Shown here: positions 14,889 through 43,070 of the stretch, in pieces
How the letters are laid out: each line of letters opens with the position of its first letter
Position numbering within the stretch: position 1 is the first letter of the stretch
Program-made: the position numbers and the translations under genes
The notes under the pieces: generated by a model
The model's database searches: none
Told to the model about the DNA's origin: nothing
Seen by the model: the letters and a program-made list of their open reading frames with translations, nothing else
DNA from: Fibrobacterota bacterium
Lineage (GTDB): Bacteria > Fibrobacterota > Fibrobacteria > UBA11236
Direction: 5' to 3'
Assembly (NCBI GenBank): GCA_028287465.1
Contig: JAQBPO010000100.1
Span: 1 to 64,000 of the forward strand
DNA: 64,000 bases

Positions 14889-15060
14889 TGGCTCACGGCT
14901 TTGGAGTTGCCGAGGGCAACTCCACGCCGCTCGCTTGATGGTAGGATAGTGGCTCACGGGTTTGGAGTTGCCGAGGGCAACTCCACGCGGCTCGCTGGAT
15001 GTAGGACGATAATGGCTCGCGGTTCCGGAGTTGCTTGAGCAACTCCACGCCGCTCACCGG
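14886..15060 (+). repeat. GGCTC hairpin repeat, array A (three units)
   Basis: Three tandem units of about 60 bp start at the stop codon of the TrpD-like gene (TAGTGGCTC). Stems: TGGAGTTGCC/GGCAACTCCA at 14902-14911/14915-14924 and at 14963-14972/14976-14985; GGAGTTGCT/AGCAACTCC at 15027-15035/15038-15046. Each unit reads GGCTC-NCGG, hairpin, CACGC, CTCGC. The same family recurs at 24247-24438, 34771-34889, 38492-38612 and 42953-43070. The array ends 21 bases before argA. Confidence 0.85.
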
Positions 15061-15080: not shown

Positions 15081-16451
15081 ATGGAAGGCAACGGAAAGAG
15101 GAAATCCGCGAAGGCGGCGGGGCAGACGCTGGCAGGCCAATCGGGATTCCCCGTGCAGTCCATCCGCGAGGTCTTCGGGTATCTCCGCCGTTACCGTGAC
15201 CAGGTATTCGTCCTCAAGATCGACGATCACCTCATGTCCAAGCCCCTGTTCTCCCTGCTCATCAAGGACATCGTCCTCCTGCAGAAGATCGGGGTACGGG
15301 TCATCCTGGTGCCGGGCGCCAAGCATTCCATCGACAAGGTCCTCAAGACCTACCGGGTCAACTCGCCCATGAAGGACGAGGTCCGCATCACCACCGAGGA
15401 GGCCATGCCCCTGGTGAAGCTAGGCGCATCCAACGTCACCAACGTGGTCCTCTCCCTGCTCACCGAGAACGGAGCGAACGGGGTGGTGGGCAATTGGGTC
15501 CGCGCGCGCGCCATGGGCGTGCTCAACGGCCTGGATTACCAGCACACCGGCCGGGTGGAAAAGGTCGACGTCGCGCTTATCAACAACATGCTGGATGACC
15601 GGCTCATCCCCATCGTTCCCAACATCGGCTGGAACCTGGTCGGCCGCGACTACAACCTGTCAAGCAGCGAACTGGCCGTCGCGATCGCCAAGGCCTTGCG
15701 CGCCACGAAGCTCTTCTTCATCGGCGTCGATACCGGCATCCCCGTGGTCCCCGATTGCGACTTCGCGGACGCGGGCGAAAAGGCGAGCGGCTATTTTTCC
15801 AACCTGGATCTGGAGGAGGGCAATATCCTCCTGCGCGATTTCTCCCATTCCCTCAAGGCCGAGCACCGCGAACTCGTTTCCCTGGCCATGGACGCTTGCG
15901 CCGCCGGCGTGGACCGCGTCCATTTCATCGACGGCTCCCTGGACGGCATCCTCCTGCAGGAAGTCTTCTCCAGCGCCGGCCACGGCACCATGTTCTACGC
16001 CAACCAATACGACAAGATCCGCCCCGCCAAGGCCTCGGACATCCCGGAAATCCTCCGCATCATGCAACCCTACGTGGACGACGGCGTCCTCATCCAACGC
16101 TCGGCCGACACCCTGGCGCAGGAACTGGACAACTTCGCGGTCTACAAGATCGATACCACCCTGCACGGCTGCGCCGCCCTGAAAATCTATCCCGACAAAT
16201 CCGCCGAACTCTACGCCGTCGTGGTGGATTCCGGCTTCACCGGCCAGGGCACCGGACGCAAGATCATCTCCTACCTACTCGACAAGGCCCGCAAGGCCGG
16301 TGTCAAGACCGTGTTCCTCCTTACGACCCAGACCAGCGACTTCTTCATGCGCAATGGGTTCCGCGAGGCCGGCCTTTCCGTCATGCCGCCCGAACGCCAA
16401 GCCGAATACAACCCGGACCGCAACTCCCGCGTCCTGGCCGTAACCTTCTAG
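15081..16451 (+). CDS. argA: N-acetylglutamate synthase (ArgA type)
   Basis: A 456-residue protein with an amino-acid-kinase fold (about 30-310) followed by a GNAT acetyltransferase domain (about 315-456), the architecture and length of ArgA, which makes N-acetylglutamate, the first step of arginine synthesis. Visible features: VLKIDDHLMSKPLFSLLIKDIVLLQKIGVRVILVPG, the IVPNIGWNLVGRDYNLSSSELA segment, GNAT motif A in VVVDSGFTGQGTGRKIISYLLDKA, and TSDFFMRNGFREAG. The kinase domain lacks clear catalytic conservation, as in other ArgA proteins where it serves for arginine sensing. TGAGG precedes the ATG. It lies downstream of hairpin array A. Confidence 0.9.
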   Translation: MEGNGKRKSAKAAGQTLAGQSGFPVQSIREVFGYLRRYRDQVFVLKIDDHLMSKPLFSLLIKDIVLLQKIGVRVILVPGAKHSIDKVLKTYRVNSPMKDEVRITTEEAMPLVKLGASNVTNVVLSLLTENGANGVVGNWVRARAMGVLNGLDYQHTGRVEKVDVALINNMLDDRLIPIVPNIGWNLVGRDYNLSSSELAVAIAKALRATKLFFIGVDTGIPVVPDCDFADAGEKASGYFSNLDLEEGNILLRDFSHSLKAEHRELVSLAMDACAAGVDRVHFIDGSLDGILLQEVFSSAGHGTMFYANQYDKIRPAKASDIPEILRIMQPYVDDGVLIQRSADTLAQELDNFAVYKIDTTLHGCAALKIYPDKSAELYAVVVDSGFTGQGTGRKIISYLLDKARKAGVKTVFLLTTQTSDFFMRNGFREAGLSVMPPERQAEYNPDRNSRVLAVTF

Positions 16452-16715
16452 CCCAGACCATCCCTCTTCTTCTCTCCGGGCAACCTATCCCAAGGTTGCC
16501 CGCAGCCCAGACCAACCATTTTTCTTCTCTTCTTCCCGGACAACCTATCCCAAGGTTGTCCGCCCCAGCCCAGACCAACCTCTTCTCTTCTTCTTCCCGG
16601 ACAACCTATCCCAGGGTTGTCCGCCCCAGCCCAGACCAACCACTTCTCTTCTTCTCCCCGGGCAACCTAACCCAGGGTTGCCCGCCACAGTCCAGACCAA
16701 CCTCTTTTTTTCCTT
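16450..16715. repeat. pyrimidine-rich tandem hairpin array (four units plus partial)
   Basis: Units of 58-62 bp begin with AGCCCAGACCAACC, continue with a C/T-only spacer and end in a hairpin. Stems: CGGGCAACCT/AGGTTGCCCG (16477-16486/16493-16502), CGGACAACCT/AGGTTGTCCG (16537-16546/16553-16562), CGGACAACCT/GGGTTGTCCG (16598-16607/16614-16623) and CGGGCAACCT/GGGTTGCCCG (16659-16668/16675-16684). The fourth stem pair switches G-C to A-T and back with both sides changing together. A fifth unit lacks the hairpin. The array begins at the argA stop codon. Confidence 0.85.
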
Positions 16716-16815
16716 TCGACCATGACATCCGAATCGAACCCCTGTGACCCCATCCGCTCTTCAAACCTCCGCGCCCCCCCCCACGCGAACACGGATTTGG
16801 AGTTCCAGGGGTTGG

Positions 16816-17045
16816 GGTCCCGGTCGCCCGGGGGCGGGGTCGGGGCTGTCAGGCGGAGGCCGGTGAATGGGGAGTCTGTCCGGGCGAACGCGAGGAAGTC
16901 GCGCGACCCGGAGCGTGTGATGTCCGTTTGCGAGCGTTTGCGATAGACCGGGCTTATTGCCGGATAGGCGACCCGCGTCCCCGCAGCCTCGTCATGAACC
17001 GGCCGCAGCCGTAAGCCCCGACCCCGCCCCCGGGCGACCGGGACC
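16816..17045 (+). repeat. inverted-repeat element 1 (possible structured RNA or MITE)
   Basis: Two perfect 32-base arms (16816-16847 and 17014-17045) are inverted copies separated by 166 bases. Inside the arms the pairing continues: GGCCGGT pairs with ACCGGCC. A second hairpin lies at 16880-16911, formed by CCGGG/CCCGG and CGCGA/TCGCG. Blocks GTCAGGCGGAGGC (16848-16860), CCGGGCGAACG (16880-16890) and AAGTCGCGCGACCCGG (16896-16911) recur on the opposite strand in the element at 23535-23800 at matching spacing. It ends seven bases past the stop of the minus-strand gene at 17053. The rest of the 16716-17052 gap holds no gene I can support. Confidence 0.75.
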
Positions 17046-17052
17046 GCGCGAC

Positions 17053-17577
17053 CTACCTGAACTCCCGATCCAACACCGACGCGATAAACCGCTCAAGGCT
17101 AATAGGATAAAACCGCGGCTGCGGGCACCAGATCACCCCCATATTGATGATCTCCGCCCGACCCATCTCATTCAGTACCTTATCCAGCAACTCCAGATCC
17201 GGATCCGCGAACGCCTCCACGGTCAGATTCTCATTGCGGATGCGGTAGTTCTTCTTGTACGCCGTGCTGAACGAGAACATCCTCGCCACAAGGCTCTTGT
17301 CCATGAACGGTTCGGCCTCCGGGAACATTTCCGCGAATCCCTCGTCGCCGGGGGAAAGGGAAAGCACCAGCTTGGGGCTCACCATGATCTTCCCGGTCAG
17401 CTTGAGGGAGCCGGGGTTGGCCTTGCCCTCATCCGTCTCGTCATTCGGGCCGATTAGGGTGAACGGAAGGGTATGGTAACCGGCGACGATACCGGTCATG
17501 GGAAGGCGGCGCACGTCCGTCTTCCTGTAGATTTGCTTCATCCGATCCTGGTCGGAGTTCTCGAACATATCGGACAT
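17053..17577 (-). CDS. conserved hypothetical protein
   Basis: A 174-residue cytoplasmic protein (no signal peptide or membrane segment). The sequence is well balanced, with many charged residues and alternating strands (MKQIYRKTDVRRLPMTGIVAGYHTLPFTLIG ... LTGKIMVSPKLVLSLSPGD), and looks like a folded alpha/beta or beta-barrel domain. The mid-region FSTAYKKNYRIRNENLTVEAFADPDLELLDKVL has a helical tail. I do not recognise the family. The ATG at 17577 gives MSDMFENSDQD; a TTG at 17586 is also in frame. It lies directly downstream of comEC, overlapping nothing, with only five bases between comEC's stop and this start, so it is the last gene of that transcript. Confidence 0.7.
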   Translation of the reverse strand: MSDMFENSDQDRMKQIYRKTDVRRLPMTGIVAGYHTLPFTLIGPNDETDEGKANPGSLKLTGKIMVSPKLVLSLSPGDEGFAEMFPEAEPFMDKSLVARMFSFSTAYKKNYRIRNENLTVEAFADPDLELLDKVLNEMGRAEIINMGVIWCPQPRFYPISLERFIASVLDREFR

Positions 17578-17582
17578 CCCAG

Positions 17583-20096
17583 TCAATCTACATTTTTGCG
17601 CCTGCCGCCATTCCGGTCAAGGCGGCGATGGGATTTGCGTACCCCCCGCGCCGCGTCGATTCCATGGTGGCCCGCGGTATCGAGGGTGGCGGGAAGATAG
17701 GTCGTCCATCCATCGGATTCCCCGCCATGGCCGTCCTTGCCCGTACCGCCCTCGCCGGCCGGGATTACCCGATCCCGGCCGCACGAGAAGGTAACGGCCC
17801 CGTCGCGCGCGGTCAGGAAGAGGCGGGAATCCAATTCCTCAAGGGCAGCGACCGTAACCGGCCCGGGATGCCCGAAGCGGTTGCTCCGCCCGGCCGAAAG
17901 CACGGAGACGGGCGGCCGCACCGCATCCAGGAAGGATCGCGCATTGGACAGATCGCTGCCGTGGTGCGGCACCTTGAGGATGGCATTGCGCAGCGGTCCG
18001 CCGCCCTTCGCCAAGAGGTTCGCTTCCGCATCCGGGCCCATATCGCCCGTGAAGAGGAACTCCCGGCCCCTCATATCCAGGAGGGTCACCACGGAATTGT
18101 CGTTCCGATCGGAAAACTGCCCGGGCCGATCCGGCGAGAGCACGGATAAGCGGATATCGCGGGATGCATAGAGGGCCTGTCCCCGCGCGACCTTGACCAT
18201 CGGCACTCCCCGTTGGGCCAGGGCCGCGCGCAAATCGTTCCAAGCGCGGGTGTCCGCTTCTATCCCGGGATAGACCACCTTGCCGATGGCCATATGGGCG
18301 GCCACGTAGGCCAGGCCGCCGTAATGATCCAGATCGGGGTGGGTGACCACGACAAGGTCGAGCCGGTTGATGCCTTCGTGGCGGAGATAGGGGAGGATGA
18401 CATTGCGTCCCGCTTCGGGCGGACCGGCATCGATGAGCACGATCGCGCCCGGCAATCGGCAAAGGGCCCCGTCGCCTTGGCCCACGTCCAGGTAGGCGAC
18501 GGATGCGGGCCCACGCCAGGCTTCCCAGGCCTCTCCGCAGGCCCAGCGTCCCGAGAACGCGGCGGCGCCCGCCAGGACCAGCAACAGGCCCCTGCGCGTT
18601 CTCGCGGCATAGGGAAAGGCGAATACGAAGAACAACAGGGCCAGGCTCCACCCCAATGGAAGGGACGGGACCGAGTAGGCAGAACCGGGCCAGAGCGCCA
18701 GGAGATGCACCGCATGCGTGAGCATGGCCCCGAAGGCTCCCGCGCTTTCCCCGAAGCAGGCCGCGATGGGGGCCACCGGGCCCGATAGCAGGCAGAGGCA
18801 CGCGGAAACGATCATGCCCGAACTCGCGCCCACGGTGGCCAGGTTCCCCAGGATCGAGGAGGGCGCGGCCGTGTGCACCACGGCAGCGAGCAAAGGGTAG
18901 ACGCCGAGGTAGATCACGATGGAAAGGGCGGGAGTGGAAACCAGGTAGACGGCCAAGGGCCCGGTGAGGCGCCACCGGGAAAGCAAGGTCGCGAGGGCCG
19001 GCGAGTACAGGATGAGGAAGAAGGTGGCCGCGAAGGAGAGCTGGAATCCCAGGGAGAGGATCTGATAAGGCATGAACGCCAGGGAGGCCGCGGCGGCCCA
19101 GCCCAGGTTGTTCAAGGCGGAACCGGGCCGCTCCCAGAGGACGGCGGGCAGGCAGGACCAGAACATGATGGCGGCGCGCAAGACGCTTATCTGCATTCCG
19201 CATATGGGCACGTATAAACCCAGGGCCGCCCCCGTGGCCAGGTAGGCGAGCTTGCGCGGCAGCCGGAGCAGAGCGAAAACCTGCAACAGGATCAGAGCGA
19301 AAATGCCCACGTGCTGGCCGCTGATGGCCAGGATATGCAGCATCCCGCTCGCCTTGAAGTCCTCGACCAGGCCCGGATCGAGATCATCGGTGGCGCCCAG
19401 CATGGCGGCCCGTAACAGGGGAGCCTGATCCCCGGGTACGGAGCGGTCGAGGGCCCGCTCCAGGGTTCCGCGCAGAAAGGCTATCAATCGATTGAACGGC
19501 CCCGGCTTTCCGATCCGTACCAGGCCGCGCGCCTCGAGGATGCCATCGAGATCCTGGGAACGCAGATAGGCGGGATAGTCGAACTGGCCGGGATTGGTGG
19601 GCGGTCCGGGCGGAGCCTCGCGCGCCCGGCACCGTAGCCTTTGACCGGGCGCTATCGGGAAGGACGGGGTATCCGACATCACCCGGTAGCTTCCGCGCTC
19701 CGTGGCCAGATTGAAGGTCAGCCTCCGCTTTTGGGAGGGGAAGCCCTCGACCGTCCCTTCCAGTTCGAAAAAAACCTTCGCTTCGGAAGAGGCGGGGGGG
19801 AAAGGCGGTGGCGCCGGCGCGGGAATATGCGACCCTCCCAGCCAAGTGGCCCAACAAACGAACAGGAAGGCCTGGGCGGCCAGACGCTTTCCGACGCCCC
19901 CTTCCAGGAACAAGGCGGTGGCGAGGAATCCCAGGTAGGAGAAACCGGGAAAGCGATAGGCCTCCAGGCAGCCCCATACCATGGGGAGGGCGGCATAGAG
20001 CCCGTGCATGCGATGATAGGCGGCTACGGAAGCCCTCCGCCATCCTTTCAGGAAAGCGGATCCCGCCCGGATCTTGGCGCGCCCGATCCTCCGCAT
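17583..20096 (-). CDS. comEC: ComEC/Rec2 family DNA uptake channel
   Basis: An 837-residue inner-membrane protein. Order of parts: N-terminal membrane helices, an OB-like DUF4131 region, the Competence domain with the conserved segment MLHILAISGQHVGIFALILLQ and about eight further helices, then a C-terminal metallo-beta-lactamase-like domain with THPDLDHYGG (HxDxDH type) and VPHHGSD. ComEC carries single-stranded DNA into the cytosol during natural transformation; the C-terminal domain is the proposed nuclease. Start 20096 has GGAGAGG just upstream, better than the TTG at 20141. The presence of comEC suggests competence, but no other com genes are in the window. Confidence 0.93.
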   Translation of the reverse strand: MRRIGRAKIRAGSAFLKGWRRASVAAYHRMHGLYAALPMVWGCLEAYRFPGFSYLGFLATALFLEGGVGKRLAAQAFLFVCWATWLGGSHIPAPAPPPFPPASSEAKVFFELEGTVEGFPSQKRRLTFNLATERGSYRVMSDTPSFPIAPGQRLRCRAREAPPGPPTNPGQFDYPAYLRSQDLDGILEARGLVRIGKPGPFNRLIAFLRGTLERALDRSVPGDQAPLLRAAMLGATDDLDPGLVEDFKASGMLHILAISGQHVGIFALILLQVFALLRLPRKLAYLATGAALGLYVPICGMQISVLRAAIMFWSCLPAVLWERPGSALNNLGWAAAASLAFMPYQILSLGFQLSFAATFFLILYSPALATLLSRWRLTGPLAVYLVSTPALSIVIYLGVYPLLAAVVHTAAPSSILGNLATVGASSGMIVSACLCLLSGPVAPIAACFGESAGAFGAMLTHAVHLLALWPGSAYSVPSLPLGWSLALLFFVFAFPYAARTRRGLLLVLAGAAAFSGRWACGEAWEAWRGPASVAYLDVGQGDGALCRLPGAIVLIDAGPPEAGRNVILPYLRHEGINRLDLVVVTHPDLDHYGGLAYVAAHMAIGKVVYPGIEADTRAWNDLRAALAQRGVPMVKVARGQALYASRDIRLSVLSPDRPGQFSDRNDNSVVTLLDMRGREFLFTGDMGPDAEANLLAKGGGPLRNAILKVPHHGSDLSNARSFLDAVRPPVSVLSAGRSNRFGHPGPVTVAALEELDSRLFLTARDGAVTFSCGRDRVIPAGEGGTGKDGHGGESDGWTTYLPATLDTAGHHGIDAARGVRKSHRRLDRNGGRRKNVD

Positions 20097-20382
20097 GAAC
20101 CTCTCCGTGCGCGCCCGGTGATCCCCGGGCGACGGAGGCAAATGTAGCCGGCGGCGGGATTGGGTTCGTGAATACCGTCACGTCTTGGCCGTATTACCCG
20201 TCGGCTGGAACCCGGTCCTTGCGCTGGATCACGGACCGGAAGGAACGCGGAACGGCAGGATGCGATCCGGAGCAAGGGAATCAAGGTCAAGAGCAGGCCG
20301 GGAGTGTTTTGAAGCGGAAGGGGAGTAGATGGGGAAGAGGAGGAGGCGGAGAGCGGAAACGGAAATCGGAAGGGAAAAAGAA

Positions 20383-20403
20383 GGGGCCGGCGATGCCGGC
20401 CCC
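20383..20403 (-). terminator. intrinsic terminator of the HU gene
   Basis: A 9-bp GC-rich stem (GGGGCCGGC at 20383-20391, GCCGGCCCC at 20395-20403) with a three-base loop begins seven bases past the HU stop. On the minus strand it is followed by CTTCTTTTTCCC, a T-rich run. This is the clearest intrinsic terminator in the window. The rest of 20142-20382 shows nothing coding. Confidence 0.85.
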
Positions 20404-20410
20404 GACAGGA

Positions 20411-20734
20411 TTACTTCTTGCCTTTTTTGGCGGCGGCCTTCTTAGCGGGAGCGCCGCCGATGGCTTCCTTCGCGGCCTTGGCCACGCGGAACTTCACCAC
20501 CTTCTTGGCGGGAATCTTGATCGCTTCACCCGTGGCCGGGTTGCGGCCCATGCGGGCTTTCCGGTTCACCAGCACAAGCTTGCCGAGGCCGGGAATGGTG
20601 AAACCATTCTTGGCGTTCTTGTAGGCAAGTGCGGATTGGCTCTCGAGGAACGAGCGGACCTGCACCTTGGTGAGGCCGTTCGCGGTTGCGAGCTGATCCA
20701 CGATTTGCGATTGGGTAAGGGATTTATCTGCCAT
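20411..20734 (-). CDS. HU family DNA-binding protein
   Basis: A 107-residue nucleoid protein of the HU/IHF family. The two-helix dimerisation region (KSLTQSQIVDQLATANGLTKVQVRSFLESQSALAYKNAKN) is followed by the beta arm with the signature GRNPATGEAIKIPAKKVVKFRVAKAAKEAI. A C-terminal Lys/Ala tail (APAKKAAAKKGKK) extends beyond the usual 90 residues, as in some high-GC bacteria where it adds non-specific DNA affinity. AAGGA sits seven bases before the ATG. A good promoter and terminator frame it as a single-gene unit. Confidence 0.95.
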   Translation of the reverse strand: MADKSLTQSQIVDQLATANGLTKVQVRSFLESQSALAYKNAKNGFTIPGLGKLVLVNRKARMGRNPATGEAIKIPAKKVVKFRVAKAAKEAIGGAPAKKAAAKKGKK

Positions 20735-20791
20735 GTGGCATCCTTTCTAGAGGGTGAATGAGCAAAGGAAAAAATACATCGGCACAGTCTT

Positions 20792-20819
20792 TATATAAAA
20801 AAATACGGATCATCTTCAA
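20792..20819 (-). promoter_or_regulatory. promoter of the HU gene
   Basis: On the minus strand TTGAAG (20814-20819) and TATATA (20792-20797) are separated by 16 bases, inside an AT-rich island unlike the GC-rich surroundings. The spacing and sequence fit a primary-sigma promoter about 58 bases upstream of the HU start codon. Confidence 0.7.
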
Positions 20820-20873
20820 CTAATTTCGCTTCCCGACCCGATAAAGATTGCCCCGCGATGCGGTGGGACGTCT

Positions 20874-21272
20874 TCATCTGGCGAGGTCCCCGACGACGCG
20901 CACGAGGGTGTCACCGTTGAAAACCATGCCCCGCTTGACCGAAACGCTGTCCGAGCCGAAGTAGTTCCACAGGGAATCCCGGTTGTCCGCCACCGCGGTG
21001 GTGTCGCCGTCTCCGCCGTTCCAGCTGATCCCGTATCGATTGTTCTCGGTCCGATCGGGCTGCCCGTAAAGGAAGACGACCATTTCCTTGGTCATGCCCG
21101 CGGCCGCTTTCCCCACGACGAAATCGTCCTTAAGACGTTGTGGTATAAGGGCTCCCGTCTGTTCCACGTATTCCTGGCGCTCGTCCGGCGTGAGGGCGCC
21201 TTTGACCAAGGCGCGGCTGGAGCAGCCGATGCATATGGCCGCGAAGAGGGACAGGGGAATGTAATTGCGCAT
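20874..21272 (-). CDS. small lipoprotein
   Basis: A 132-residue lipoprotein with signal MRNYIPLSLFAAICIGC, the lipobox Cys being residue 17. The mature part has LTPDERQEYVEQTGALIPQRLKDDFVVGKAAAGMTKEMVVFLYGQPDR, a pattern like BamE/SmpA-type small outer-membrane lipoproteins, in which 'G.t.eev..l.GxP' precedes two strands; this resemblance is an impression, not a domain call. An ATG at 21287 would add five residues. It is divergent from the DUF4416 gene. Confidence 0.7.
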   Translation of the reverse strand: MRNYIPLSLFAAICIGCSSRALVKGALTPDERQEYVEQTGALIPQRLKDDFVVGKAAAGMTKEMVVFLYGQPDRTENNRYGISWNGGDGDTTAVADNRDSLWNYFGSDSVSVKRGMVFNGDTLVRVVGDLAR

Positions 21273-21435
21273 AAGAGTTGGGATCATTCTATCATTTTTT
21301 CCCGCCAATGCTTGGCATTTCTGCGCCCGGCCCGATTTTCTTCCGAGGTCCCAGGCCCTCTCCCGAGCCCGCCCCATCGGCTCCGGAAGCAGCCAAAGGT
21401 GTTCCTTGCCCGGGAATACTGTTACTTTTCCTCCC

Positions 21436-22008
21436 ATGAACGCATCCGATGTTCCCGCCGGACCCCCTCGGGAGGCCCTTTGCAAGCGGGTGATGGCCGT
21501 GCTCGCCCCGTACCCCCAGCCTTCCGAGGCCCTGTGGCCGGGCCTGGAAAGCGTGTTCGGCCCCATCGACTTCAAGGGCCCCTTCCTGCCTTTCGATACC
21601 ACGGACTATTACCGGGACGAGTTCGGGCCTGGCCTGCATCGAGGGTTCATTTCCTTCCGGGGCTTGGCGAGCCCGGAAGGATTGCCCGGGCTGAAGCACG
21701 ATGCCGCACGCCTCGAAGCGGCGATGGCCAAGGAGGGTAAGCGCTTCTATAATCTTGACATAGGATACATGGACTCTGACAAATTGGTCCTCGCTTCTTT
21801 CAAGCGCGGACCGTGCAAATTGTATCTTACCCATGGCGTTTACGCGGACCTCCTGATAAAATACGCAAAGGGCCGTTTCGAGCCCTTTCCATGGGCCTTT
21901 GCCGATTTCCAGGACGGAAGATACCAGAAGAGCCTTTTGACCATCAGGGAAAAATTGAAATCGGAGCTTCGCAAGTCCAGGGAAGAAGCTTCCGGAGAAT
22001 CGGATTGA
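21436..22008 (+). CDS. DUF4416 family protein
   Basis: A 190-residue protein matching the DUF4416 pattern: the FDTTDYYRDEFGPGLHRGFISFRGLASPEGLPGLKHDAARLE core, then YNLDIGYMDSDKLVLASFKRGPCKLYL and an FPWAFADFQDGRY motif. Family function is unknown; members occur in deltaproteobacteria and other anaerobes. ATG 21436 lacks a Shine-Dalgarno (preceded by a pyrimidine run), so a leaderless or alternative start is possible; the frame is open to 21265. The following lipoprotein gene begins six bases after its stop. Confidence 0.85.
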   Translation: MNASDVPAGPPREALCKRVMAVLAPYPQPSEALWPGLESVFGPIDFKGPFLPFDTTDYYRDEFGPGLHRGFISFRGLASPEGLPGLKHDAARLEAAMAKEGKRFYNLDIGYMDSDKLVLASFKRGPCKLYLTHGVYADLLIKYAKGRFEPFPWAFADFQDGRYQKSLLTIREKLKSELRKSREEASGESD

Positions 22009-22013
22009 ACACT

Positions 22014-23228
22014 ATGGCATCGCTCGACCGGTTCCCGTCCACCCTCGCCCAGGCAGTCCTGGCCGCCTTCCTGGGCCTTTGCATCGCCTCCTGCGGCACC
22101 TTCACCCTGGGCGACGATTCGCCCACCCCCAACCGTTCCGTCAAACGCCGCGTCTACGTCAATGACAAGGCCCCGAACGACTCCTTGCGTTCCGACCTGA
22201 TCCTCAGGGGAGTCAAGTTCGTCCTCCAACCCAACCGTTCCTACGAGTTCGCCCTGGATTCAACCGCCCGGACCGGTGACAAGCTCAAGCTCTTTTATTT
22301 CAAGGACAACGTTCCGGACCTGTACAAGACCCTCGACGCGGCCAGCAATGGAACCCGGGAGGTATTCTCGTTCGTCTCCGATCGCGCCGCGGCCCAATTC
22401 TTCATGGTCCAGCTTTCGACCCCGGACGGCGCCCAGGCCATCTCCAGCCTCAGGCATGTATCCCTGGCCAACGCCTCCGCCCTCTCCTCGGATACCCTGC
22501 AGGTCCGCCTGATGTTCATCCGCAACCTGCGCAACTTCCCGGATTCCGCCTCCAAGGCCGCCTTCGCCAAGAGCCTATTCACCGAGATGGCGAAAATCTA
22601 CTCCCCTCTCGGCATCGTGCTGCAAGGCTCCATCGACATCATCGAACCGCTGGCGCCGGCCCTTACCTTCCCCTTCAGCAATACCTACGTCCCCCTGCCT
22701 GGCAACCGGGCCCCCAACCACGCCCATCTTTACATCGTGGACAGCATTTCCATCGGCGACCCCGCCTCCGGCCTCGTAGGCGAGGTCCTCGGCTTCGCCC
22801 CCCGCGAAGTCGTCGATATCGACAACCATCCCGAAAGCCGCGTCCTCCTCTCAGGCCGCATCAAGGACCCGGTCAGCCTCGCCATAACCGCCACCCACGA
22901 ACTCGGCCACTTCTTCGGCCTCCGCCACACCGTATCGACCAAACACGACTTCCTCCAAGACGCCGACTTCTCCAACGTCGAGGACGGTTTCACGGACACC
23001 CGTTTCTGCCAACTCGACATCGCCTTCGCCAAACAGGCCGCCCCCGTCTGGCTCGAGCCCGCCGACACCAAATACTGCCTCCGCATCGCCGACAATTCCT
23101 GCAGCAACCTCCAATGCGACCTAACCAACCTCATGCATCCGGTCGACTGCGGCTCCCGCAACCAGATCCGCTTGAGCCCCCAGCAGATCACCTTCCTGAA
23201 AACCAACCTCGCCAGCTACAAGCACTAG
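22014..23228 (+). CDS. lipoprotein metzincin-like zinc metallopeptidase
   Basis: A 404-residue lipoprotein (signal ends CIASC, Cys27) with the extended zinc motif HELGHFFGLRH at residues 295-305, i.e. HExxHxxGxxH, and a downstream NLMHP that fits the Met-turn of metzincins. The region before it has the wrapped beta/alpha character of matrixin or pappalysin-like catalytic domains. Several Cys residues follow the zinc site, possibly disulphides. Substrates unknown; the lipid anchor places it on the outer membrane or cell surface. It begins just after DUF4416, so the two are probably co-transcribed. Confidence 0.82.
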   Translation: MASLDRFPSTLAQAVLAAFLGLCIASCGTFTLGDDSPTPNRSVKRRVYVNDKAPNDSLRSDLILRGVKFVLQPNRSYEFALDSTARTGDKLKLFYFKDNVPDLYKTLDAASNGTREVFSFVSDRAAAQFFMVQLSTPDGAQAISSLRHVSLANASALSSDTLQVRLMFIRNLRNFPDSASKAAFAKSLFTEMAKIYSPLGIVLQGSIDIIEPLAPALTFPFSNTYVPLPGNRAPNHAHLYIVDSISIGDPASGLVGEVLGFAPREVVDIDNHPESRVLLSGRIKDPVSLAITATHELGHFFGLRHTVSTKHDFLQDADFSNVEDGFTDTRFCQLDIAFAKQAAPVWLEPADTKYCLRIADNSCSNLQCDLTNLMHPVDCGSRNQIRLSPQQITFLKTNLASYKH

Positions 23229-23253
23229 AGACCTCCAGCCACGGCCGCCAAAC

Positions 23254-23339
23254 CTCCCTTCCCCTTTCTCCTTTCCTTCCTCTCTTTTCTCCTTTCTTTT
23301 CTCTTTTCTTTTCTCTTTTCTTTTCTCTTTTCTTTTCCG
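23254..23339. repeat. 86-base pure pyrimidine tract with 12-bp repeats
   Basis: Every base from 23254 to 23339 is C or T on the plus strand. The last part is three perfect copies of TCTCTTTTCTTT (23301-23312, 23313-23324, 23325-23336). Such mirror-like homopurine/homopyrimidine DNA can form triplex structures; in RNA it is an unstructured pyrimidine run. It starts 26 bases after the metallopeptidase stop. Confidence 0.9.
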
Positions 23340-23534
23340 CCAGACAAACCGCCGCGCGCATTCCAAAGCAAGGCCCCACAGCCACCGCGGCCTCCTCGCC
23401 CCCTGTATCCGAAATAGGGCCCCACACCGAATCGACCCGCCGCCCAGACGCATACGTCCAAGCCACCCCCCCGACGAACCCAACCAGCCACGGTTGCGAC
23501 CCCGGAGTCCGCTCGAACAGAAGGCGCGTTGGGT

Positions 23535-23800
23535 CTGGGGCGGCGGCTGGGGAGCGCGGGGGGCGGATATCAGGCGTTGCCGACGACCCGCCGGCTTCGG
23601 CGGGGCGCTCGGTTCGCAGGAGCGGTGGCAGGGCGAGGGCCGGGCGTCCGCGAGACTTGATATCGAGAGGCGTCCGTTCGCCCGGCCCGCGCAGCGGACC
23701 CGAAGCCTCGGCCTGACGCCGATCCGAAAGACCCAGCGCATCGAAGCGAACTCGGCAATGCCGTCATCCGCCCCCCGCGCTCCCCAGCCGCCGTCCCCGG
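23535..23800 (-). repeat. inverted-repeat element 2 (possible structured RNA or MITE)
   Basis: Arms at 23535-23568 and 23766-23800 pair over 34 positions with one G-T pair and one bulged T (23794). Pairing resumes inside (GGCGTTGCCGA with TCGGCAATGCC, one G-T). Inner hairpins include CCCGCC/GGCGGG near 23590 and GGGCCGGGCG/CGCCCGGCCC (about 23637-23688). On the minus strand, blocks matching element 1 lie at 23705-23717, 23675-23685 and 23640-23658; the first two are 32 bases apart start to start, exactly as in element 1. It ends 19 bases before the stop of the minus gene at 23820. No supported gene lies in 23340-23534. Confidence 0.75.
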
Positions 23801-23819: not shown

Positions 23820-24245
23820 TCACTCCATCGCCAGGGGTTGCAAGGAGTTCACGATATCGTAGAACGCCTGGATCCTGGCGTCCATGCCGTCCTTGCGGGC
23901 CCCATGGTAACGGATGAAGGCGCAGTAGTTGTTCCAGAACGCATGGCAGACGATCCAAAGGCGCTCATCGATGCCGATGCCGCGGGTGACGATGGTGATG
24001 ATCTTGTAGGGATTCTCCGTCATCACGGTCTTCAGGGGTTGGATCTTCTCTTCCCGCAGGTAGTTCTCGTGGAACTCGGAAATCTCCACGTCCTCGGCCT
24101 TCTTGATCTTGCGCGCCGCGATCAGTTCGATGAAGCAGGAGTTGTCGTTGGCCGTCACCATGGTCTTGTCCGGCAGGTCCTTCACCTGCCATCCCGTGGA
24201 CTCGGCGAAATCGAAGCAGTACCAGGCGCATGGGGAGACGTGCAT
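23820..24245 (-). CDS. conserved hypothetical protein
   Basis: A 141-residue soluble protein of unknown function, with alternating strands (KTMVTANDNSCFIELIAARKIKK ... YKIITIVTRGIG) and C-terminal helices (RIQAFYDIVNSLQPLAME). There is no signal peptide. It has the feel of a small stress- or regulator-type domain, but I do not recognise it. Its GAGGAG Shine-Dalgarno, five bases before the ATG, is the end of a hairpin-repeat unit (array B), so the repeat appears to supply its ribosome binding site. It follows ruvX on the same strand. Confidence 0.65.
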   Translation of the reverse strand: MHVSPCAWYCFDFAESTGWQVKDLPDKTMVTANDNSCFIELIAARKIKKAEDVEISEFHENYLREEKIQPLKTVMTENPYKIITIVTRGIGIDERLWIVCHAFWNNYCAFIRYHGARKDGMDARIQAFYDIVNSLQPLAME

Positions 24246-24246
24246 T

Positions 24247-24438
24247 ATGGCTCCTCGCTGGGAGTTCGCTGGGCGAACTCCACGCTTGGTCGCTTCGGGC
24301 GAGTGCTGGGCGCACCCGCAGACATGAGCTCCCTGGTCATCAAGGCTCCTCGCTGGGAGTACGCTGGGCGAACTCCACGCTTGGTCGCTTGGGGCGAGGG
24401 CTGGGCGAGCCGGCAGATATGAGCTTCCCGTTCATTTG
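24247..24438 (-). repeat. GGCTC hairpin repeat, array B (two 96-bp units)
   Basis: Two units of 96 bases share most positions. Stem 1 is GGAGTTCGC/GCGAACTCC at 24261-24269/24273-24281; stem 2 (24356-24364/24368-24376) has a single A-A mismatch. Read along the genes (minus strand), each unit ends in GCGAGGAGCC, and the last one is followed by ATA and the ATG of the 23820-24245 gene. The units also contain a longer spacer (CCCAGC.CTCGCCC) not seen in other arrays. The second unit overlaps the ruvX stop. Confidence 0.85.
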
Positions 24439-38494: not shown

Positions 38495-38612
38495 TGGCTC
38501 GTCGCTCCGGAGTTCGCGGGGCGAACTCCACGCTTCCTCGCGTGATGGTCTTGGTGGCTCGTCGCTCCGGAGTTCGCGGGGCGAACTCCACGCTTCCTCG
38601 CGGGAGTGTCTG
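38492..38612 (+). repeat. GGCTC hairpin repeat, array D (two 60-bp units)
   Basis: Two units with exact 60-base period starting at the smc stop (TAGTGGCTCGTCGCTCC). Stems GGAGTTCGC/GCGAACTCC (38509-38517/38521-38529 and 38569-38577/38581-38589), loop GGG. The two hairpin cores are identical; the tails differ. Confidence 0.9.
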
Positions 38613-42953: not shown

Positions 42954-43070
42954 GTGGCTCGTTGCTACAGAGTTTGCTTTGCAAACTCTGCGCGCCTCGC
43001 ATTATAAGTCTTGTGGCTCGTTGCTACAGAGTTTGCTTTGCAAACTCTGCGCGCCTCGCATTAGTAGTCT
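42953..43070 (+). repeat. GGCTC hairpin repeat, array E (two units plus decayed copies)
   Basis: Two units with 59-base period: GTGGCTCGTTGCTA, stem CAGAGTTTGC/GCAAACTCTG (42968-42977/42981-42990; 43027-43036/43040-43049), loop TTT, then CGCGCCTCGCATTA. Fragments GGCTCGTCGCTAC (43074 and 43130) and CGGAGTCCTCCACGC (about 43237) downstream look like decayed units without the hairpin. The stretch 43071-43316 otherwise has no gene. Confidence 0.85.

Follow-up and report, generated by a model that had tools for sequence, protein, structure and literature searches.

What are the two long inverted repeats, E1 and E2, that lie between convergent genes in this 64,000-nucleotide stretch of a Fibrobacterota genome (hereafter, the window)? 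E1 is a 230-bp hairpin (16816..17045) and E2 a 261-bp hairpin (23537..23797); both are delimited by arm complementarity, by folding and by an orthologue in a sister species, G005, and both have the minus strand as their family orientation. The sequence-only reading of this DNA had described perfect 32-bp arms in E1 and near-perfect arms in E2, and both descriptions hold. The distal outer arm of E1, on the side away from the host gene (16816..16847), is complementary to the proximal outer arm (17014..17045) at 32 of 32 positions, and the distal arm of E2 (23537..23568) is complementary to its proximal arm (23766..23797) at 31 of 32, with more base pairs beyond a bulge outside the 32-nt arms. 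E1 and E2 are the sole inverted repeats in the window that score at least 16 within 450 bp, and their scores of 32 and 30 compare with best scores of 12–19 in 30 local dinucleotide shuffles. Both are GC-rich and fold over their entire length on both strands, and when both were folded, the minus-strand RNAs were found to fold far more strongly than shuffled sequences (z −8.4 for E1 and −7.1 for E2).

The interior of the hairpins required a new alignment. Two strings proposed as shared blocks are present, GTCAGGCSGAGGC at 16848 (+) in E1 and 23705 (−) in E2 and CCGGGCGAACG at 16880 (+) in E1 and 23675 (−) in E2, and their joint spacing was matched in 1 of 300 shuffles by a score picked post hoc, but they do not occupy homologous positions. 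In the true register, CCGGGCGAACG of E1 complements one side of the apical hairpin and opposes the other side in E2. A family-wide homologous alignment places both elements on the minus strand, and the supposed opposite-strand relation between them is therefore wrong. From this alignment, the genuinely conserved features are an apical core and a basal motif, GCCTGAY, which adjoins the distal arm. The motif is found as GCCTGA on the minus strand at 16849..16854 in E1 and 23570..23575 in E2 and is common to most copies beside the distal arm. The core, also on the minus strand, spans 16882..16944 in E1 and 23631..23690 in E2 as delimited by a model, R1, that has both elements among its training sequences; R1 contains just 3 base pairs and therefore tests the sequence of the core, not its fold.

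BLAST searches of the host assembly (5.8 Mb in 100 contigs) with E1 or E2 return weak matches only, because the copies diverge fast, and several of these matches fall inside other long hairpins. We therefore scanned for inverted repeats without recourse to sequence similarity in approximately 1.5 Mb of the host genome and in samples of sister species, to which targeted loci were added; the comparison set comprised five genomes of the same genus (G001–G005) and, from a sister genus, four small ones, all fragmented assemblies. The scan and the targeted loci together yield 25 elements: 12 in the host, nine in G005 (five of them from an unbiased sample of 0.34 Mb), two in G004 and two in G002. The density in the host is about 8 per Mb, which extrapolates to perhaps 45 per genome. 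In more distant relatives, approximately 139 kb around one locus contains no element. Across the family the hairpins are 183–301 bp long with outer arms of about 23–32 bp. Pairwise local alignment links most copies into a chain, mainly in one consistent relative orientation, within which three looser subfamilies are seen (E1/E2/E4/E6/E10-like, E3/E8/E12-like and E7/G5e/G5f-like); the interiors are homologous between copies, and the apical core is common to the first subfamily. The model of this core finds new matches on contigs C40 and C50 of the host (G000) and C85, C24 and C43 of G005, and at E ≤ 0.01 nothing in G001 or G003, in any of the four genomes from the sister genus or in a genome from another family. 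The 41 viral hits to a 16-base core pattern are attributed to chance, given that the core model never gives an E-value better than 0.045 there, and neither E4 against plasmids nor E1 against phages gives a match. We found no description of the family in the open-access literature. On these sequence comparisons, E1 and E2 belong to a family of self-pairing elements that had not been listed before and whose members lie by gene ends within a single Fibrobacterota genus.

Repeats of other kinds occur in the same genomes. A second type in the window (14902-14985, 24261-24376, 38509-38589 and 42968-43049) consists of 21–23 bp palindromes in pairs 36–74 nt apart, for example GGAGTTCGC-GGGCGAACTCC and CAGAGTTTGC-TTTGCAAACTCTG, arranged in REP/BIME-like fashion despite the lack of a RAYT in the genome. 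A short G005 repeat, GCGAACA-CCC..GGG-TGTGAGCCAC, lies near elements and is also inserted within one of them, G5d (sites at L178:1302-1365, directly before L105 18163 and inside L125:4633-4925). G005 and G004 also contain CGTCGGG-type tandem repeats arranged as inverted pairs and unlike CRISPR arrays (L120:1-120, L123:13015-13114 and L133:467-601).

In G005, an orthologue of each window element occupies the corresponding gene junction (L105:11583-11836 for E1 and L105:18163-18463 for E2), and G002 has a related element at the E2 junction. The outer arms of the G005 orthologues differ from those of the window copies; similarly, E4 and its G005 orthologue G5d share a flanking gene pair and have interiors that are alike and arms that are largely different. 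Outer arms in fact differ between all copies, and conservation is lowest at the ends of the element. Pairing is nevertheless kept: among 688 arm positions in the 25 elements, 664 are Watson–Crick pairs, four are G-T, five are A-C, 14 are other mismatches and one is a gap. In the outer helices of two subfamily alignments, two-sided changes number 12 and 17 and one-sided changes one and one, so that two-sided changes are about ten times as frequent, and every measure of whole-structure covariation exceeds 500 of 500 shuffles as well as slid controls. These alignments contain four and three sequences and use structures derived from the same sequences; the covariation count is therefore illustrative and is not a formal test. 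Stems that change quickly and stay paired suggest a maintained hairpin. The sequence-only reading had taken a conserved interior within diverged but pairing arms as the mark of a structured or mobile family, and the 25 copies and sister-species orthologues agree with it; the further copies, common fold and covarying arms that it predicted are likewise seen.

The kind of pairing retained bears on the level at which it matters. Selection on a one-strand RNA should favor G-U above A-C. The two are nearly equal in the arms, and in the wider pairing regions G-T numbers 13 and A-C 10; this points, though on small numbers, to copying at the DNA level or to a role for the pairing in DNA itself. Template switching provides a precedent, as it makes and repairs stems in one step (PMC8794818) and homogenizes arms and inverts spacers (PMC8604942).

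The elements have a preferred place and direction. E1 starts 7 nt past the stop codon of a minus-strand gene (17053..17586; 177 aa, no Pfam match) that adjoins a ComEC-like gene and faces a convergent plus-strand gene (15081..16451) with amino-acid kinase and GNAT domains, a composition resembling that of N-acetylglutamate synthase. E2 starts 22 nt past the stop codon of another minus-strand gene without a Pfam match (23820..24245; 141 aa) and faces a convergent gene of 407 aa, also without a Pfam match (22005..23228, plus strand). Internal sequence fixed the orientation, except that the basal motif alone was used for E9 and a few others; gene calls came from a simple codon model; and G5b, G4a, E11 and G2b were excluded from the count because their orientation is uncertain. 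In 12 of 16 independent loci (16 of 20 with orthologues included) the element starts 4–79 nt past the stop codon of a same-strand gene, a share that is suggestive and not significant alone (two-sided binomial ~0.08). By hand count, one constant end of the element is the nearer to the gene in 15 of 16 loci. E3, E10, G5f and G5g/G4b, at four of the 16 loci, are antisense to the gene nearest the abutting end. Only a small fraction of convergent junctions bear an element. Facing pairs of elements occur at two junctions (E3/E8 and G5e/G5f). At the rseP–purD junction the host element E6 is sense after rseP and its relatives in G005 and G004 lie in the inverted orientation; we accordingly dropped this junction as proof that an element trails the operon end in every species.

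On a fixed side, opposite the gene-abutting end, most copies carry a G-rich tail of about 200–300 bp. The minus-strand tails of E1 (16452..16815) and E2 (23229..23536) have skews of +0.44 and +0.43 over 300 bp, the majority of tails have skews of about +0.3 to +0.5, and those of E3, E8, E12, G5e and G5f are near zero. Among 27 convergent junctions of 120–900 bp in the host sample, the top six by skew are the element-bearing ones. Tail modules are common to several copies, such as E4/E6/G5d and E2/E10/G4a. Within the E1 tail, 16452-16730 consists of about four tandem 60-bp units, each with a GGACAACCTATCCCA-GGTTGTCC hairpin.

Mobility of the family is only indirectly supported. The closest copy pair, E4 and E6, has interiors that are 88% alike in unrelated flanks, and the same junction occurs with or without an element depending on the species; dispersed related copies and presence/absence therefore imply spread or loss. 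The mobile element raised by the sequence-only reading gains this much, whereas the target-site duplications that it suggested looking for were not detected (mean flank match 1.88 against 1.99 at random), and no shared ends or near-identical copies are present among the elements found. Neither a RAYT (Y1 transposase, PF01797) nor a reverse transcriptase is found in the host or G005, and we therefore reject REP/RAYT and retron-type machinery. In four related pairs, aligned columns show greater identity within the element than within the tail, suggesting constraint; with length-normalized identity, the two separate clearly in E6/G5g only. Long palindromes with short loops, checked as possible pre-existing targets yielding the outer arms, are present but few.

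Based on position and polarity, we tentatively favor, at less than even confidence, a conserved hairpin element that acts at transcript ends and whose stem is renewed by template-switch copying together with selection. Transcription of the adjacent gene would enter the element, and the folded RNA, or an extruded DNA strand, could end or shield the transcript and insulate it from the convergent neighbor. Copying of arm onto arm by template switching, coupled with selection for the hairpin, would turn single changes into two-sided ones, and loops and core might be maintained by some binding partner. This reading is the best supported, counting in its favor the 12 of 16 sense loci, the kept orthologues, the two-sided changes, the tail, the strong folding and the template-switch precedent; counted against it are the lack of a U-tract, the few convergent junctions with an element, the four of 16 antisense loci, the rseP–purD inversion and the near equality of G-T and A-C. 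The further proposal that these are a new class of genomic 3′-end element, a polar giant hairpin with a G-rich tail, a dedicated reader, inherited pairing and a template-switched stem, seems to us rather unlikely. Nearly as likely as the transcript-end element is a non-autonomous, MITE- or REPIN-like mobile DNA hairpin, the folded strand of which would be recognized by an enzyme encoded elsewhere and which would lie at gene ends through target preference or tolerance. Its dispersal in unrelated flanks (as in E4/E6), its presence or absence at one junction, pairing that lacks an RNA-strand signature and the inverted unit at rseP–purD would all fit such an element; unconserved ends, closest copies that are merely 88% alike, retention at orthologous junctions, and a host without target duplications, RAYT or reverse transcriptase would not.

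The remaining explanations account for less. That template switching alone perfects the arms of functionless palindromes would explain why arm changes are nearly all two-sided and poor in wobble, as copying predicts, but a conserved core, a basal motif, polarity and a tail are not expected of such palindromes. The greater similarity of element than of tail in the aligned columns of four related pairs also counts against this explanation, which we consider improbable. A processed RNA, in which the arms form a double-stranded stalk that RNase III would cut to free the conserved interior as a 3′-end small RNA, matches a variable, perfect stalk around a structured interior and the sense position past the stop codon at most loci; given the numerous diverged copies per genome, the four antisense loci and a stalk without wobble excess, it is quite improbable. 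The attC sites of integrons are variable palindromes often located directly after stop codons, properties comparable to those of the elements, and an integron integrase is above cut-off in G000, G005, G004 and G001 (curated cut-off 265 bits; in the host 376.7 bits, at L192:1950-2882 on contig C13, with an attC-like 142-bp palindrome upstream at L192:119-260). However, RYYYAAC/GTTRRRY boxes are absent from the terminal 25 nt of the elements, the elements have no similarity to the single attC-like site near the integrase, they occur as solitary units next to core genes and outside cassette arrays, and G002 carries elements yet has no integrase above cut-off. We therefore rejected membership in attC despite the integrase in the genome, and solitary integron attC sites are a highly improbable explanation.

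The family can be compared with several known systems. No Rfam family matches the window at gathering score, and at E ≤ 1 the element loci give one sub-threshold match only, outside the element. Like intrinsic terminators, the elements are GC-rich hairpins behind the last gene; unlike them, they are about ten times longer, have a conserved interior and lack a U-tract, and no terminator-like site is found at the elements, while ordinary terminators occur elsewhere in the host genome. Should their role lie at transcript ends, this would make them a polar 3′-end device of unusual length. REPINs and REP sequences (PMC3116915) are likewise multi-copy intergenic hairpin units with compensatory changes in a paired spacer, but their REP ends are highly conserved and they are accompanied by a RAYT transposase, neither of which is seen in this family or host; conserved REP ends in inverted pairs are not found in the elements, whose 183–301 bp hairpins also set them apart. 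Bacterial MITEs (PMC2229807) are similarly short, non-coding and dispersed with inverted-repeat ends, whereas the terminal repeats here vary from copy to copy and lack target duplications; if mobile, this would be a hairpin element with unconserved terminal repeats. Integron attC sites (PMC2727003) share with the elements a structure conserved above sequence and a location near stop codons, and the elements differ in being longer, with perfect outer arms and a G-rich tail and without terminal boxes or a cassette array. Stems shaped by template switching (PMC8794818, PMC8604942) are alike in their homogenized arms, two-sided changes and spacer inversion; there, it is a mutational process, and here, an element family. 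The family thus provides a natural set of near-perfect 23–32 bp stems that have diverged in place between sister species, are still paired and have scarce wobble intermediates, in which the question of whether stems evolve stepwise via G-U or in one templated event becomes directly testable.
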